Shown here: piece by piece, positions 7,338 to 14,558 of the stretch
How positions within the stretch are numbered: position 1 is the first letter of the stretch
How the letters are laid out: each line of letters begins with the position of its first letter
Source: a bacterium
GTDB taxonomy: Bacteria; UBP15; UBA6099; DSWB01
DNA: 14,698 bases
Direction of reading: 5' to 3'
Assembly (NCBI GenBank): GCA_020061125.1
Contig: JAGUYV010000126.1
Location: 1 to 14,698 of the forward strand
Position numbers and translations under genes: made by a program
The notes under the pieces: generated by a model
Seen by the model: the letters and a program-made list of their open reading frames with translations, nothing else
What the model was told of the DNA's origin: nothing
Databases searched by the model: none

Positions 7338-7389
7338 GAAGGATAGTATAACGGGGAAAGCGTGAGCGCGCCACAGGGCCGCCATGCGC

Positions 7390-8619
7390 CTACTGGCCCG
7401 CGCTCACAACCGGGGTCCACACCACGAAGGGGCGCATGGTGAGGTTGCCGGCCGCATCCACATCCACGATGCGGAAACTCCACGCCTCGCCCGGCAGGTA
7501 GCTGCTTGAAGCCGTGCCCGTGCTAATGAAGAGCGTGTCCCCGTCCTCGCGCATGTAGTTTTTGTGCGTGTGCCCGAAGAAATAGTATTCCACACCCTGC
7601 GCCCTGACGAATTTCGCAAATTCGTCGCGCTGGATCACCGGGAACTTGTCGTCGCCAGCGAATGCGCTCATGTTCATGGGGTCGTGATGCGCGAACAGAA
7701 CCGGGCGCAATTTCATGGCCCTCGCTTCCGCGATCCGGTCTTTAACCCAATCGAACTCGCCGTGGCCCATGATTCCCAGGGAGCGGGATCCGACGGCGTC
7801 AATAAGCGCGGCGTCGAGCCGGTCGGAATACGCCGGGGGCCAGTTGTAGGTGTTGAATCCAATGAAACGGAACGGGCCGTAAGTGAATGCGGACCGGTGC
7901 GGGCCGAACGCCTCTGCCCAGAATGTCCTCCCGTCTATGCCCAGGCCCATCATGGTGTACAGGTCGTGGTTGCCCGGCACAATAAACGCCGGAACCTTGA
8001 GGCCGTCCAGAACCTCTCGGAGCGCCTGCGCGTAGTCAGCTTCGTATGTCGTGGGATAGTAAACCAGATCCCCGGTGAGAAGCACAAAGTCGGGCCTGGC
8101 GGCGCTCACCGCAGCCATGGCCTTTGCGCGCAGTTCCTGAAGAGGAATGCCGGGGTTGTTCTTGCCGCCGCGCTCGTCGCCCACATGGAAATCGGTGAGA
8201 ACCACGAACCGGAACGCTGGTTTGAACTCCTGAACCACGCTCACCGCGTGCCCTCGGCACTCGGTCTCCACGCCCTCACCCTTCTTGCGTTCCACGCAAA
8301 AATCATACAGGCCCTCGGGCGCATCCACGGGCGCGGCCAAGGTCAGCCTCTTCTGTTCCCGGCAATCAAAGGCCTTGCTCACAAGCACGGGTTGCGCGCC
8401 CGTCCCCGCGCTCGGGCGCAGGCTCACCAGTGTGATGCGCACGGCTCGGCCGCACTCCAGTCCCGCCTCGAAATAATCGCCGGGACGGAGCATAACCGGC
8501 GCGCTCGTGGACGGATAGGCGATGATGTTTCCGTCCGCCGCCAGAGAAGGTCGCGGCCACAGCGCCGCAAACAGCAACATTGCAATAACCGCAAAACCCG
8601 CCAACCGTTTCACTCTCAT
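7390..8619 (-). CDS. secreted calcineurin-like metallophosphoesterase
   Basis: 409-residue exported phosphoesterase with the full two-metal motif set: D-x-H in LTDFHVGD (Asp143, His145), GD in LLTGDLVYYP (Asp184), GNHD (Asn217, His218), His311 in LFAHHDP and GHTH (His350, His352). A signal peptide covers about 1-28 (ends PSLA/AD), so it acts outside the cytoplasm. A domain of about 100 residues with several Cys (56, 86, 108, 121) precedes the catalytic part and may be an Ig-like or disulfide-stabilised cap. The start at 8619 gives a clean signal peptide and has GGGGAG 8 bases upstream; the open frame extends 15 codons further without support. It is the first gene of a minus-strand group with the transglutaminase-like gene and pyrE. 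The substrate cannot be predicted. Confidence 0.92.
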   Translation of the reverse strand: MRVKRLAGFAVIAMLLFAALWPRPSLAADGNIIAYPSTSAPVMLRPGDYFEAGLECGRAVRITLVSLRPSAGTGAQPVLVSKAFDCREQKRLTLAAPVDAPEGLYDFCVERKKGEGVETECRGHAVSVVQEFKPAFRFVVLTDFHVGDERGGKNNPGIPLQELRAKAMAAVSAARPDFVLLTGDLVYYPTTYEADYAQALREVLDGLKVPAFIVPGNHDLYTMMGLGIDGRTFWAEAFGPHRSAFTYGPFRFIGFNTYNWPPAYSDRLDAALIDAVGSRSLGIMGHGEFDWVKDRIAEARAMKLRPVLFAHHDPMNMSAFAGDDKFPVIQRDEFAKFVRAQGVEYYFFGHTHKNYMREDGDTLFISTGTASSSYLPGEAWSFRIVDVDAAGNLTMRPFVVWTPVVSAGQ

Positions 8620-8697: not shown

Positions 8698-8725
8698 AAA
8701 AAAGCACGGCGCGCATGCGCCGTGC
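8698..8725 (-). terminator. intrinsic terminator after the REC-FNT gene
   Basis: On the minus strand a perfect 9-bp stem GCACGGCGC / GCGCCGTGC (8725-8717 with 8712-8704) with a 4-nt loop is followed directly by TTTTTT (8703-8698). It starts 38 bp past the stop codon at 8763. Confidence 0.9.
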
Positions 8726-8762
8726 CGGTTCATTGAAGCGGAGCGCGATGAGCGCGCGCGGC

Positions 8763-10037
8763 TTACAAATTCTTTTTCCGCAGATAAACCACCCAGTAGA
8801 GCAGGCCCACGAACCCGGCGCCGCCCACGATGTTGCCGATCGTCACGGGAACCAGATTTGCGGTGATGAATGCGCCCCATGTCAGGTGCGACAAATCCAG
8901 TCCCAGCGCCGCGGCGAACGGCGCGCTTTTCAGGAGAATGCCCATGGGAATGAAGTACATGTTCGCGATGCAGTGTTCAAAGCCCAGGGCCACAAAGGCG
9001 GTGATCGGGAACACGATGGCCAGAATCTTGCCGCTGATCTGGCGCGCGGACAGGGCCATCCACACGGCCAGGCACACCAGCCAGTTGCACCCGATGCCCC
9101 GGAAAAAGGCTTCGGAAAATGTGAGGTTCACCTTGGCGTTGGCGATGGAGAGCGCCTGCGCGCCCACCGCGGAATTCGCGGTTTTCCACAGGTTCGAGTG
9201 ATACATGATCCACACGAGAAGCAGAGAGCCTGCGAAGTTTGCGAAATACACGATGGCCCACTTGCCCAGCATTTCGCCGGGCGTGATCTTCCTGTCCGCG
9301 ATGGCGGCGATCATGAGGTTGTTGCCGGTGAACAGCTCGGCGCCCGCAACCACCACCAGAATCAGGCCCACGGAAAAGACCAGGCCCGAGAGCAGCTTGG
9401 CCACGCCTACGCCCATGAACGCCGCGGCGTCGTGCCCCACCAGCGTGGCCAGGGCCGCGCCGAACCCGATGTAGATGCCCGCGAACAGGCCCAGAATCAA
9501 GAGCGGAACCAGCGGCAGCCGCGCCTTGCCCGGAGACACGGTGCGCGTGACCGCGTGGCACACCGCCGCGGGCGCGCTGAACCCCACTCCCCCGGTCACG
9601 AGATCAATTTTCTCCATGAGGCGCCCGTACACCTCCTGCCGGTCTTCGGCGCGGGCCTGCTCGCGCCACTGGATGGCCCGCTGCGCCACACGGTTGATCT
9701 CCTCGGGCGAAAACGGCTTCTCCAGATACTCGAACACCCCGTTCTTGGCGGCCCGCACCTCGAGATCATTCGTGGGATACCCCGTGATCATGATGACCGG
9801 TGCGTGCGGATTGGTGCGCCTCACGCACTCCACCAGCTCGATGCCGTTGATGTCCGCCATCATATAGTCGGTGATGATCAGATCGAAATCGCCCCGCGAG
9901 GCCTTGCGCACCCCTTCGAGGCCGGACAGCGCCGTGTCCACCTCGAAACCCTGCTCGCGGAAGGTGCGCGAGCAACTGTCCACAACAATGTTTTCGTCGT
10001 CCACAATTAGGATTTTCTTTGTTCCGTTCGCGCCCAT
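8763..10037 (-). CDS. receiver domain fused to formate/nitrite channel (REC-FNT)
   Basis: 424-residue single frame joining two complete modules. Residues 7-122 form a CheY-like receiver with acidic pair Asp13/Asp14, phospho-acceptor Asp57 (LIITDYMM), switch Thr85 (MITGYP) and Lys107 (EKPF). After a linker (about 123-150), residues 151-424 form a FocA/NirC-type anion channel with about six membrane helices and all hallmarks: GAELFTGN (232-239), Lys302, GCNWLVCLAVWMA (316-328), GFEHCIANMYFIP with the pore His355, and NLVPVTIGNIVGG (394-406). In FocA the short cytosolic N-terminus controls gating, and here a phosphorylatable domain occupies that place. The start at 10037 follows AAGGAGG by 5 bases; a Met six codons upstream lies before this site. 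No frameshift or stop lies between the modules. The closest match by motif is formate-type FNT; the substrate (formate, nitrite, hydrosulfide) is not proven. Confidence 0.95.
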   Translation of the reverse strand: MGANGTKKILIVDDENIVVDSCSRTFREQGFEVDTALSGLEGVRKASRGDFDLIITDYMMADINGIELVECVRRTNPHAPVIMITGYPTNDLEVRAAKNGVFEYLEKPFSPEEINRVAQRAIQWREQARAEDRQEVYGRLMEKIDLVTGGVGFSAPAAVCHAVTRTVSPGKARLPLVPLLILGLFAGIYIGFGAALATLVGHDAAAFMGVGVAKLLSGLVFSVGLILVVVAGAELFTGNNLMIAAIADRKITPGEMLGKWAIVYFANFAGSLLLVWIMYHSNLWKTANSAVGAQALSIANAKVNLTFSEAFFRGIGCNWLVCLAVWMALSARQISGKILAIVFPITAFVALGFEHCIANMYFIPMGILLKSAPFAAALGLDLSHLTWGAFITANLVPVTIGNIVGGAGFVGLLYWVVYLRKKNL

Positions 10038-10061
10038 GATCGCCTCCTTGTGCATGAATGC

Positions 10062-10117: not shown

Positions 10118-10154
10118 AAAAGAGATCCCGCGGCGCGGCGGCGGCCGCGGGATC
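10118..10154 (-). terminator. intrinsic terminator between response regulator and REC-FNT
   Basis: On the minus strand an 11-bp perfect stem GATCCCGCGGC / GCCGCGGGATC (10154-10144 with 10134-10124), a 9-nt loop and the tail TCTTTT (10123-10118). It begins 14 bp after the response-regulator stop and lies 80 bp before the channel start, so most transcripts of the first gene should end here. Confidence 0.8.
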
Positions 10155-10167
10155 CCGTGCTCCCGTG

Positions 10168-10869
10168 TCACCACGCTTCGATGCACAGGCGGCGCATCAG
10201 AAACTGCTTCTGTTCCGGCGTGAGCCGCCCGGCGTGTTCCTCGAACCAGCGGATGTCGCCGCTGGTGATGGCCGCCGCGGCTTCATGTCCCAGCCCGGCC
10301 GCGCTCGGAATTTGCGCGCGCAGCCCGTGGTCCAGAAATGCCGCGAAATACCCGCCGTCCGCCACGGCCCGGTTCAGCACGGACATGACCTGATCCGCAT
10401 CAATGAACACCTCCGGCGCTTCCTCGGGCGAGGCCGGCTCCGGCTCCGGCGCGAATACGGCCGCCGGTTGCGGCGCTTCTTCTTCCCCGGGCTGCTGCGG
10501 CAGCCGTTCCAGCACCTTGTTCACCACGGTCAGAATTTCATCCGGAGTGAACGGCTTGGGAATGAAGTCTTCCGCGCCCACCTTGATAGCCTCCACGGCC
10601 GTGGGCACCGAGGCGTATCCCGTGATCATGATCATGGCCAGGGACGGCTGCTTCTCCTTGATGCTGCGCATGACTTCCAGTCCGTCAATGTCCGGCATCT
10701 TGAGATCAATGATGGCCACATCGAACACTTCCGTATCCACCTGTTCGAGGCCTTCTCTGCCGGACAGCGCGAACTTGATGCTATGCCCCTCTTCCTCGAA
10801 AATCCGCTGGCATCCCTTGCAGATGCTCAACTCGTCGTCTATGACCAGAATTTTGTGCGGCGCTTTCAT
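10168..10869 (-). CDS. response regulator with non-DNA-binding C-terminal domain
   Basis: 233-residue cytosolic protein. The receiver domain (1-122) has Asp11/Asp12, phospho-acceptor Asp55 (VAIIDLKMPD), Thr83 and Lys105. A Pro/Glu-rich linker (about 123-155) leads to a helical domain of about 78 residues with VLNRAVADGGYFAAFLDHG, SGDIRWFEEHAG and a C-terminal RRLCIEAW. No helix-turn-helix, GGDEF or AAA+ motif is present. The C-terminal pattern recalls small LigA-like (protocatechuate dioxygenase alpha-type) helical domains attached to regulators in anaerobes; this is a recollection, not a match. The start at 10869 follows AAAGGGG by 9 bases and lies about 35 bp after a predicted sigma-54 start of transcription; the open frame extends upstream without support. 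Its receiver resembles the one in REC-FNT next door (shared ALSGxEG, MITGY, KPFxPxEI). Confidence 0.9.
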   Translation of the reverse strand: MKAPHKILVIDDELSICKGCQRIFEEEGHSIKFALSGREGLEQVDTEVFDVAIIDLKMPDIDGLEVMRSIKEKQPSLAMIMITGYASVPTAVEAIKVGAEDFIPKPFTPDEILTVVNKVLERLPQQPGEEEAPQPAAVFAPEPEPASPEEAPEVFIDADQVMSVLNRAVADGGYFAAFLDHGLRAQIPSAAGLGHEAAAAITSGDIRWFEEHAGRLTPEQKQFLMRRLCIEAW

Positions 10870-13347: not shown

Positions 13348-13434
13348 AACAACGCTTTAGCGCCATGTTTGATTCGCATGGCCGCGCAATGAATACGAAG
13401 AAACTGAAAGCGAGACAAACCGCAACAACTTGCA

Positions 13435-13460
13435 GGGCGGGGTCACCGCACCCCGCCGCT
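13435..13460 (+). repeat. REP1 palindrome
   Basis: Hairpin with 8-bp stem GGCGGGGT / ACCCCGCC and a CACCGC loop, preceded by the foot GCAG. Confidence 0.85.
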
Positions 13461-13529
13461 CCCAATGACCGCAAGGCAACTATCGTCTGTCCGGGCGAGT
13501 CACATCTTGCAGGTCTTGAGCATTTTGCA

Positions 13530-13555
13530 GGGCGGGGTCACCGCACCCCGCCGCT
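13530..13555 (+). repeat. REP2 palindrome
   Basis: Same 26-bp core as REP1, 95 bp downstream, foot GCAG. It ends 30 bp before the transposase start codon. Confidence 0.85.
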
Positions 13556-13585
13556 CCCATGTTTCGCGAGTCGCGCAACCAGGCT

Positions 13586-14080
13586 ATGAAAAAGCAACCT
13601 GAAGACAAAAAACAACCCAGGCAGCGCCGTCACCTCCGGAGAATTGATCCGGATCGGATATACACGAACATCGCTGTATACGACATCACCATGGTTTCGC
13701 TTGGCCGGCGCAAAGTTTTGACAACGCCTGCGCTCGCCAGCGCCATTGTGCATTGCTTGAACACAGCCCCCGGGTACCACCGGTGGGCCGTCGGGCAATA
13801 TGTGATTATGCCGGATCATCTGCATTTTTTTTGCCGTGACATCGGAAGCGAAAAGGACTTGTCCTCGTTTGTCAGAGATGTCAAAAAATTCAAGGCAAGC
13901 CAGGCCAGGCGTCTGGGAATGCCGGGGCGGCTGTGGCAGCCCGAATTTTTTGACCATGTGTTGAGAGACATGGAATCATACGGAGAGAAATGCGAGTATT
14001 TGAGGATGAATCCGGTGAGGGCGAAACTCGTTGCGGAACCGGAGTCATGGCCCTGGCAGGGGGTATGCGAGGAAATATGA
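13586..14080 (+). CDS. REP-associated tyrosine transposase (RAYT, Y1/HUH family)
   Basis: 164-residue single-strand DNA transposase-like protein of the IS200/IS605-related Y1 family. It has the HUH motif MPDHLHFF (His78, His80), the following helix DLSSFVRDVKKFKASQARR, the family signature RLWQPEFFDHVLRDMESY and the C-terminal helix CEYLRMNPVRAKLV, in which Tyr138 is the likely catalytic Tyr. The end PESWPWQG is also typical. All key residues are present, so it may be active. RAYTs cut and rejoin single-stranded DNA at REP palindromes with a GTAG-like foot, and five such elements surround this gene. The Met at 13586 is preferred. A Met at 13559 lies at the edge of REP2 and would add nine residues; neither has a strong ribosome site. 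Confidence 0.92.
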   Translation: MKKQPEDKKQPRQRRHLRRIDPDRIYTNIAVYDITMVSLGRRKVLTTPALASAIVHCLNTAPGYHRWAVGQYVIMPDHLHFFCRDIGSEKDLSSFVRDVKKFKASQARRLGMPGRLWQPEFFDHVLRDMESYGEKCEYLRMNPVRAKLVAEPESWPWQGVCEEI

Positions 14081-14126
14081 GAAACGAAGAATCCGGGCAG
14101 CGGCTTGGCGCTCCAAGAAACTTGAG

Positions 14127-14152
14127 AGCGGCGGGGTGCGGTGACCCCGCCC
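14127..14152 (-). repeat. REP3 palindrome (inverted)
   Basis: Same 26-bp core on the minus strand, foot GTAG (14156-14153), 47 bp after the transposase stop. In opposite orientation to the other four, it can form a BIME-type pair with REP4 or REP2. Confidence 0.85.
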
Positions 14153-14311
14153 TACAACATCCCGCGTTTCTTTTGAGAAACCTGCCGGATGGGCTTGATT
14201 CGCGAATTGCATCGGAGCGCAACAACGGCATTGGGTTCAAGGCGCTTTTTTCTCACATGCCCGGGCAAAATGCAAAGGAACTGAAAACAAAACGAACCGC
14301 AACAACTTGTA

Positions 14312-14337
14312 GGGCGGGGTCACCGCACCCCGCCGCT
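14312..14337 (+). repeat. REP4 palindrome
   Basis: Identical 26-bp core to REP1, foot GTAG (14308-14311). Confidence 0.85.
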
Positions 14338-14406
14338 CTCAATGACCGCATGGCAACTATCGTCTGTCCGGGCGAGACACATCTTGCAGGCCTTGAGCAT
14401 TTTGTA

Positions 14407-14432
14407 GGGCGGGGTCACCGCACCCCGCCGCT
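14407..14432 (+). repeat. REP5 palindrome
   Basis: Identical 26-bp core, foot GTAG, 95 bp after REP4. Confidence 0.85.
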
Positions 14433-14558
14433 CACAATGACCGCAGGGCGGCACACCCCTGTCCGGGCGCGACGCATGTTTGCATGGCTCACAATGGCTT
14501 TATTTGATCTTCAATAACAATATTTATCAAACAACCGAACAAGCGGAGGGGAAAACAC
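14433..14558. other. degenerate third spacer and leader of last lipoprotein gene
   Basis: After REP5 the spacer begins again (AATGACCGCA, then GTCCGGGCG) but decays by about 14490, as if a further 95-bp unit had eroded. Next comes an AT-rich stretch with a spaced inverted pair TTTGAT (14503-14508) and ATCAAA (14526-14531), which may hold the promoter of the following gene; no good -35/-10 pair is evident. GGAGGGG (14545-14551) is the ribosome site. Confidence 0.45.

Follow-up and report, generated by a model that had tools for sequence, protein, structure and literature searches.

Can the receiver domain of a two-component system act directly on a membrane channel? Two-component signals usually end in a change of transcription, enzyme activity, or motility, and the gating of formate/nitrite (FNT) channels is still a matter of debate. 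The question is raised by a stretch of 14,698 nucleotides (contig JAGUYV010000126.1; here, the window), in which a receiver and an FNT channel are encoded as one protein. Formate, the presumptive cargo of such a channel, is one of the main currencies in anaerobic syntrophy and in sulfate reduction.

A receiver and a formate channel in one frame

The original prediction, made from the letters of the window, was that an uninterrupted frame at positions 8763 to 10037 joins an intact CheY-like receiver to an intact FNT channel. The frame is real, and its strand, which had not been given, is the minus strand. The gene, here called REC-FNT, runs from 10037 to 8763, stop codon included, as a single open frame without internal stop, and encodes a CheY-like receiver and a complete FocA-type formate channel in 424 amino acids. 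A plus-strand reading of the same span was rejected as an unrelated shadow frame. The ATG at 10037 is preceded at 5-nt spacing by the Shine-Dalgarno sequence AAGGAGG (10043 to 10049, minus strand), and an in-frame ATG at 10055 is a less likely alternative start. An intrinsic terminator-like site, a 10-bp stem with a T run, lies on the same strand just 3' of the gene (8703 to 8726). No Rfam match was found. PADLOC matches to SduA and PDC-M60B (E ~1e-5) were rejected as signs of a defense function, being matches to the receiver fold.

The receiver domain occupies residues 9 to 116 (9690 to 10013, minus strand; Pfam PF00072, Response_reg, E 1.1e-25), and its phosphorylation site is complete (D13, D14, D57, T85, and K107). 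It is followed on the same strand by a linker of about 34 residues (residues 122 to 155; 9573 to 9674), by a FocA-type N-terminal gating segment (residues 156 to 171; 9525 to 9572) in which P156 corresponds to FocA P12 and K171 to FocA K26, and by the FNT channel domain (residues 170 to 416; 8790 to 9530; Form_Nir_trans, E 3.2e-81), the channel part as a whole spanning residues ~156 to 420. The channel half scores 272.7 bits against PF01226 (curated cutoff, 34.6) and passes the NCBIfam fnt subfamily model TIGR00790 (257.8 versus a cutoff of 232.3), but it misses the FocA equivalog model TIGR04060 (235.6 bits versus 290.1); judged by these profiles, it is FocA-like but not a curated FocA equivalog. 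Present are the motifs GAELFTGN, K302, GFEHCIANMYF, and NLVPVTIGNIVGG, and the equivalents of FocA T91, K156, E208, H209, and N262 are T237, K302, E354, H355, and N402, respectively. The residues that the original prediction had named, namely the five of the receiver site together with GAELFTGN, K302, and the pore histidine, were all correct. In an AlphaFold2 (AF2) monomer model (pLDDT 80.8), receiver and channel are confident, and the linker is unreliable at residues 132 to 154. A Foldseek search with this model ranked full-length FocA cryo-electron microscopy chains first, with TM scores of 0.90 to 0.92 on the FocA chain. Besides REC-FNT, no FNT was found in the genome of the window (4.1 Mb in 513 contigs, 79% complete).

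Elsewhere in the window, positions 13392 to 14480 hold a Y1-transposase-like gene of the RAYT type (13559 to 14080, plus strand; PF01797, E 2e-5) with GC-rich repeats on either side, comprising a 168-nt direct repeat of 92% identity and inverted copies. The repeat has 36 matches in the genome, and with the RAYT-type gene this indicates a REP/RAYT-like system in the window.

Distribution and conservation of the fusion

About 30 full-length relatives of the fusion were found, spread over at least five phyla (Planctomycetota, Desulfobacterota, Acidobacteriota, Spirochaetota, and Armatimonadota). A scan of genomes from 84,980 species contributed 17 further full-length fusions, from Planctomycetota (L032, L033, L034, L036, and L052), Armatimonadota (Zipacnadia; L064), Acidobacteria (L035 and L041), Desulfobacterota and other "Deltaproteobacteria" (L037 to L039 and L042 to L046), and Spirochaetales (L040). 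In a profile search of 395 Desulfobacterota genomes, full-length fusions were present in 11, at E values of 1e-203 or better, and ordinary FNTs were covered over the channel half alone, at ~1e-116 or worse, a clean, two-peaked split. The corresponding searches yielded a full-length fusion in 2 of 392 Planctomycetota genomes and in at least 4 of 347 Acidobacteriota genomes. At roughly 0.5 to 3% of the species sampled in these three phyla, the fusion is therefore rare but widespread. It is also the sole true FNT gene in 16 of 17 fused genomes examined, the exception being a Sedimentisphaerales genome with a second, unfused FNT; in genome G048, a second FNT match was sub-threshold only. In one Desulfobacterales contig (L063:5941-7108), a masked run of N falls in the REC-FNT region, with receiver and channel as separate frames, and this case is not interpretable.

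Could the joined frame nevertheless be an assembly join, a frameshift, or a chance fusion without function? The window's genome is fragmented, at 513 contigs, and the original prediction had itself named a join or frameshift at about residues 123 to 150, or absence of the fusion from all relatives, as what would overturn it. However, some 30 independent genomes from five or more phyla share the domain order, similar spacing, and the domain limits at full length, the frame has no internal stop, and the active sites are conserved. An artefact is thereby excluded in practice, and we give this explanation almost no weight.

The history of the fusion is seen less sharply. On a 65-row FNT tree, the 19 fused rows form one side of a single, weakly supported branch (45/77), against a mean of 16.7 changes after shuffling. 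The nearest FNTs to that of the window, by path, are the Planctomycetota fusions. That the lineage of the window acquired its fusion separately and recently is disfavored by this single-branch grouping, which at a support of 45/77 falls short of proof. A tree of the receivers, at 127 columns, was too short to resolve the origin. A single fusion, or a small number of them, with later horizontal spread would fit.

In an alignment of 28 REC-FNT fusions, D13, D14, D57, K107, and P108 of the receiver were invariant, and position 85 was serine or threonine throughout. Twelve FocA pore positions were checked in the same set, and all were invariant except F90, which was tyrosine once; the invariant FocA-equivalent positions are F75, L79, L89, T91, K156, N172, F202, E208, H209, N213, and N262. 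The pore residues T91, H209, K156, N172, F75, F202, E208, and N262 are identical in the window and the 28 aligned fusions. Because active-site and pore positions are conserved in this way, both receiver and channel are probably under selection to work, and the intactness claimed for the two halves in the window extends to the relatives.

The segment between the halves is conserved in its placement. The linker is mostly 31 to 34 residues long in the 28 fusions (extremes, 23 and 36), and the equivalent of FocA P12 is found in all of them and that of K26 in 27. Work on FocA describes P12 as highly conserved and K26 as crucial (PMC12559229); removal of the N-terminal helix severely disrupts translocation, and PflB is proposed to gate the pore by docking on that helix (PMC11841067). 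The statement in the original prediction that FocA gating depends on its cytosolic N terminus is in line with both papers. Since a FocA-type gating segment directly follows the linker in the fusions, the receiver sits on the known control handle of the channel.

Gene neighborhood and the link to formate

In the relatives, the fusion is accompanied by other two-component genes. A kinase of the sCache_3-HAMP-HisKA type lies within about 5 kb at 23 of 27 fused loci versus 0 of 61 solo-FNT loci (Fisher p 2e-17), and a companion receiver with a C-terminal domain (CTD), REC-CTD, occurs at 15 of 27 fused loci versus 0 of 61 ordinary-FNT loci (p 5e-10), both p values being optimistic because the loci are related. 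The kinase is a membrane protein of ~650 amino acids with, by Pfam, an sCache_3_3 sensor, HAMP, HisKA, and HATPase. The usual gene order is kinase, a receiver of ~120 amino acids, a receiver of ~208 amino acids with an extra domain, and REC-FNT, with two to four receivers per kinase. The ~208-amino-acid companion consists of a receiver and a helical CTD of ~80 amino acids, for which Pfam gave no convincing match (below curated cutoffs, ubiquitin at E 0.0055 and CSLinker at E 0.014). One Planctomycetota REC-FNT operon (L032:1602-3977) encodes a further receiver, fused to Fer4 and pyridine-nucleotide-disulfide oxidoreductase domains that resemble HdrA/Nfn, so that here a redox enzyme bears a receiver.

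The window has a companion of its own, a REC-CTD protein of 233 amino acids encoded just upstream of REC-FNT (10168 to 10869, minus strand). It was found with a CTD hidden Markov model built without the window sequence (E 3.1e-15), its receiver residues are intact in the alignment, and its AF2 model has a pLDDT of 83.6. Within the gap between the two genes lies a hairpin followed by TCTTTT (10122 to 10156, minus strand; dG -35.7 kcal/mol, z -4.3), a possible attenuator or terminator; with so strong a hairpin and a short U run between them, the two genes may not be simply cotranscribed. Genome context, to which the original prediction had looked, supports it in the relatives, with their membrane histidine kinase and additional receivers; in the window, no kinase was found adjoining the REC-FNT and companion genes. 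Likewise, no kinase with an sCache sensor was found in the window's genome, as assembled to 79% completeness; the closest kinases there match the sCache kinase at the catalytic core and HAMP region only.

Control of transport without transcription, another part of the original prediction, fits most of the Desulfobacterota operons, from which a recognized DNA-binding regulator is absent. It is not universal, since an NtrC-type regulator stands beside the kinase near the fusion in L034 (confirmed by Pfam) and probably in L036. The L064 locus contains a REC-PAS-kinase hybrid.

Several observations connect these genes to formate. The original prediction had left the cargo as formate or nitrite; the pore residues make formate, as in FocA, more likely than nitrite. 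Two formate dehydrogenase alpha subunits encoded in the window's genome score above the TIGR01591 cutoff (L165 and L166). The former locus (L165:1137-5228) encodes a protein of 1,364 amino acids in which a complete formate dehydrogenase alpha subunit is joined to a part resembling the small subunit of NADPH-dependent glutamate synthase. A formate dehydrogenase gene adjoins REC-FNT at L040. Homologs of REC-CTD occur in genomes of the same order (L154:8770-9384, L155:7770-8414, and L156:522-1169), and in L154 and L155 they stand inside a formate dehydrogenase operon, beside a kinase and a receiver and without any FNT, which suggests that the companion CTD acts on formate oxidation.

The sensor of the relatives' kinase points the same way. 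Agrobacterium and Pectobacterium have formate-binding sensors of the Cache_3 family, and in Pseudomonas such sensors function in chemotaxis to formate (PMC8698456, PMC12501870); by analogy, the sCache_3 kinases plausibly sense formate. The kinase sensors share a near-invariant motif, R-x-x-T-N ... G-x-R-A-x-G-T; an exact residue match of this motif to R115 of Atu0526 was not established. An unfused FNT of Desulfosporosinus (L109) has an sCache_3_3-HAMP-HTH protein encoded on either side (L109:4540-5649 and 7355-8563); both are one-component membrane proteins in which the helix-turn-helix domain is C terminal, and NuoF-like and [FeFe] hydrogenase genes lie downstream.

Proposed control of the channel and comparison with known systems

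Architecture, conservation, neighborhood, formate-type pore residues, and the formate dehydrogenases of the genome make it likely, in our judgment, that formate flux is controlled posttranslationally, gated or tuned by the phosphorylation state of the receiver; counted against this are the long, poorly predicted linker and a window without an adjacent kinase. Phosphotransfer, gating, its direction, the ligand, and pentamer assembly we infer. The protein would be a FocA-type channel, presumably a pentamer, with a phosphorylatable receiver on its cytosolic N terminus. A sensor histidine kinase would phosphorylate Asp57, in the relatives a membrane kinase whose extracytoplasmic sCache_3 sensor is plausibly one for formate, and in the window's genome a kinase whose gene either lies elsewhere or is absent from the assembled contigs. 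Phosphorylation would change the packing or dimerization of the receiver at its alpha4-beta5-alpha5 face, and the change, passed through the ~34-residue linker, would reposition the FocA-type N-terminal gating helix and so tune formate exchange. The companion REC-CTD may be a second output or a phosphate-sharing partner, probably tying the signal to formate oxidation. We lean, somewhat less firmly, toward the fuller reading in which a kinase sensing formate outside the cell sets formate crossing through an aspartyl phosphate on each channel subunit, with direct phospho-gating as the main output in operons that mostly lack a recognized DNA-binding regulator.

The receiver might instead serve, tethered to the membrane, as a phosphate sink or a place for docking, with the channel as just an anchor and REC-FNT phosphorylation controlling the kinase or REC-CTD as the real output. 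The two to four receivers per kinase recall phosphate-sink systems, and the linker is flexible in the AF2 model. However, the fused FNT probably works as a channel, because its checked pore residues are kept and it is nearly always the sole FNT in these genomes, and all 28 relatives carry their receiver at the known gating helix; we regard the sink as unlikely. Less probable still is that formate occupancy of, or flux through, the FNT alters receiver phosphorylation, making REC-FNT a transceptor and an input to the kinase and companion. Histidine kinases with a fused transporter domain as their input are known (the CbrA type), and the companion receiver could carry the output, but the partner here is a receiver, normally the receiving and not the sensing end, and the kinase already carries an sCache sensor on the outside. 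With an intact channel, seldom accompanied by another FNT, and a receiver placed on the gating element, both alternatives are less economical than phosphorylation-dependent gating.

If phosphorylation-dependent gating is correct, REC-FNT would represent a class of response regulators whose output is a channel. A receiver on a pentameric anion channel would give direct, reversible control of membrane flux, and these natural fusions make FNT gating testable through point mutations of one aspartate. As the fusion is kept intact in about 30 relatives, usually beside a kinase with a formate-type sensor, bacteria may switch a channel without changing gene expression. We found no description of a receiver-FNT fusion in a search of 5.4 million open-access papers, and a 2017 census of FNTs mentions neither receivers nor response regulators (PMC5525234).

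Like other response regulators (PF00072), REC-FNT has a complete CheY-like receiver with a full phosphorylation site, but its output is a transmembrane anion channel and not a DNA-binding, enzymatic, or protein-binding domain. SSS-HK fusions of the CbrA type likewise unite transport and two-component signaling within a single protein, but they link the transporter to a sensor kinase, for which it may serve as an input, whereas the REC-FNT channel is joined to a receiver, at the output end. The sensor family of the relatives' kinase (sCache_3 or Cache_3-Cache_2) is common to the formate chemoreceptors Atu0526, PacF, and McpF (PMC8698456, PMC12501870), but here the sensor drives a histidine kinase and not chemotaxis, its ligand being proposed from family resemblance. 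The closest comparison is with Escherichia coli FocA (PDB 3kcu, 9g49, and 9i3k), which shares with REC-FNT the FNT fold, all 12 checked pore residues, an N-terminal gating segment with the equivalents of P12 and K26, and control from the cytosolic N terminus. In FocA, a separate enzyme, PflB, docks on the N-terminal helix, whereas in REC-FNT that end is covalently joined to a phosphorylatable receiver, and the genes of its relatives sit in two-component operons.
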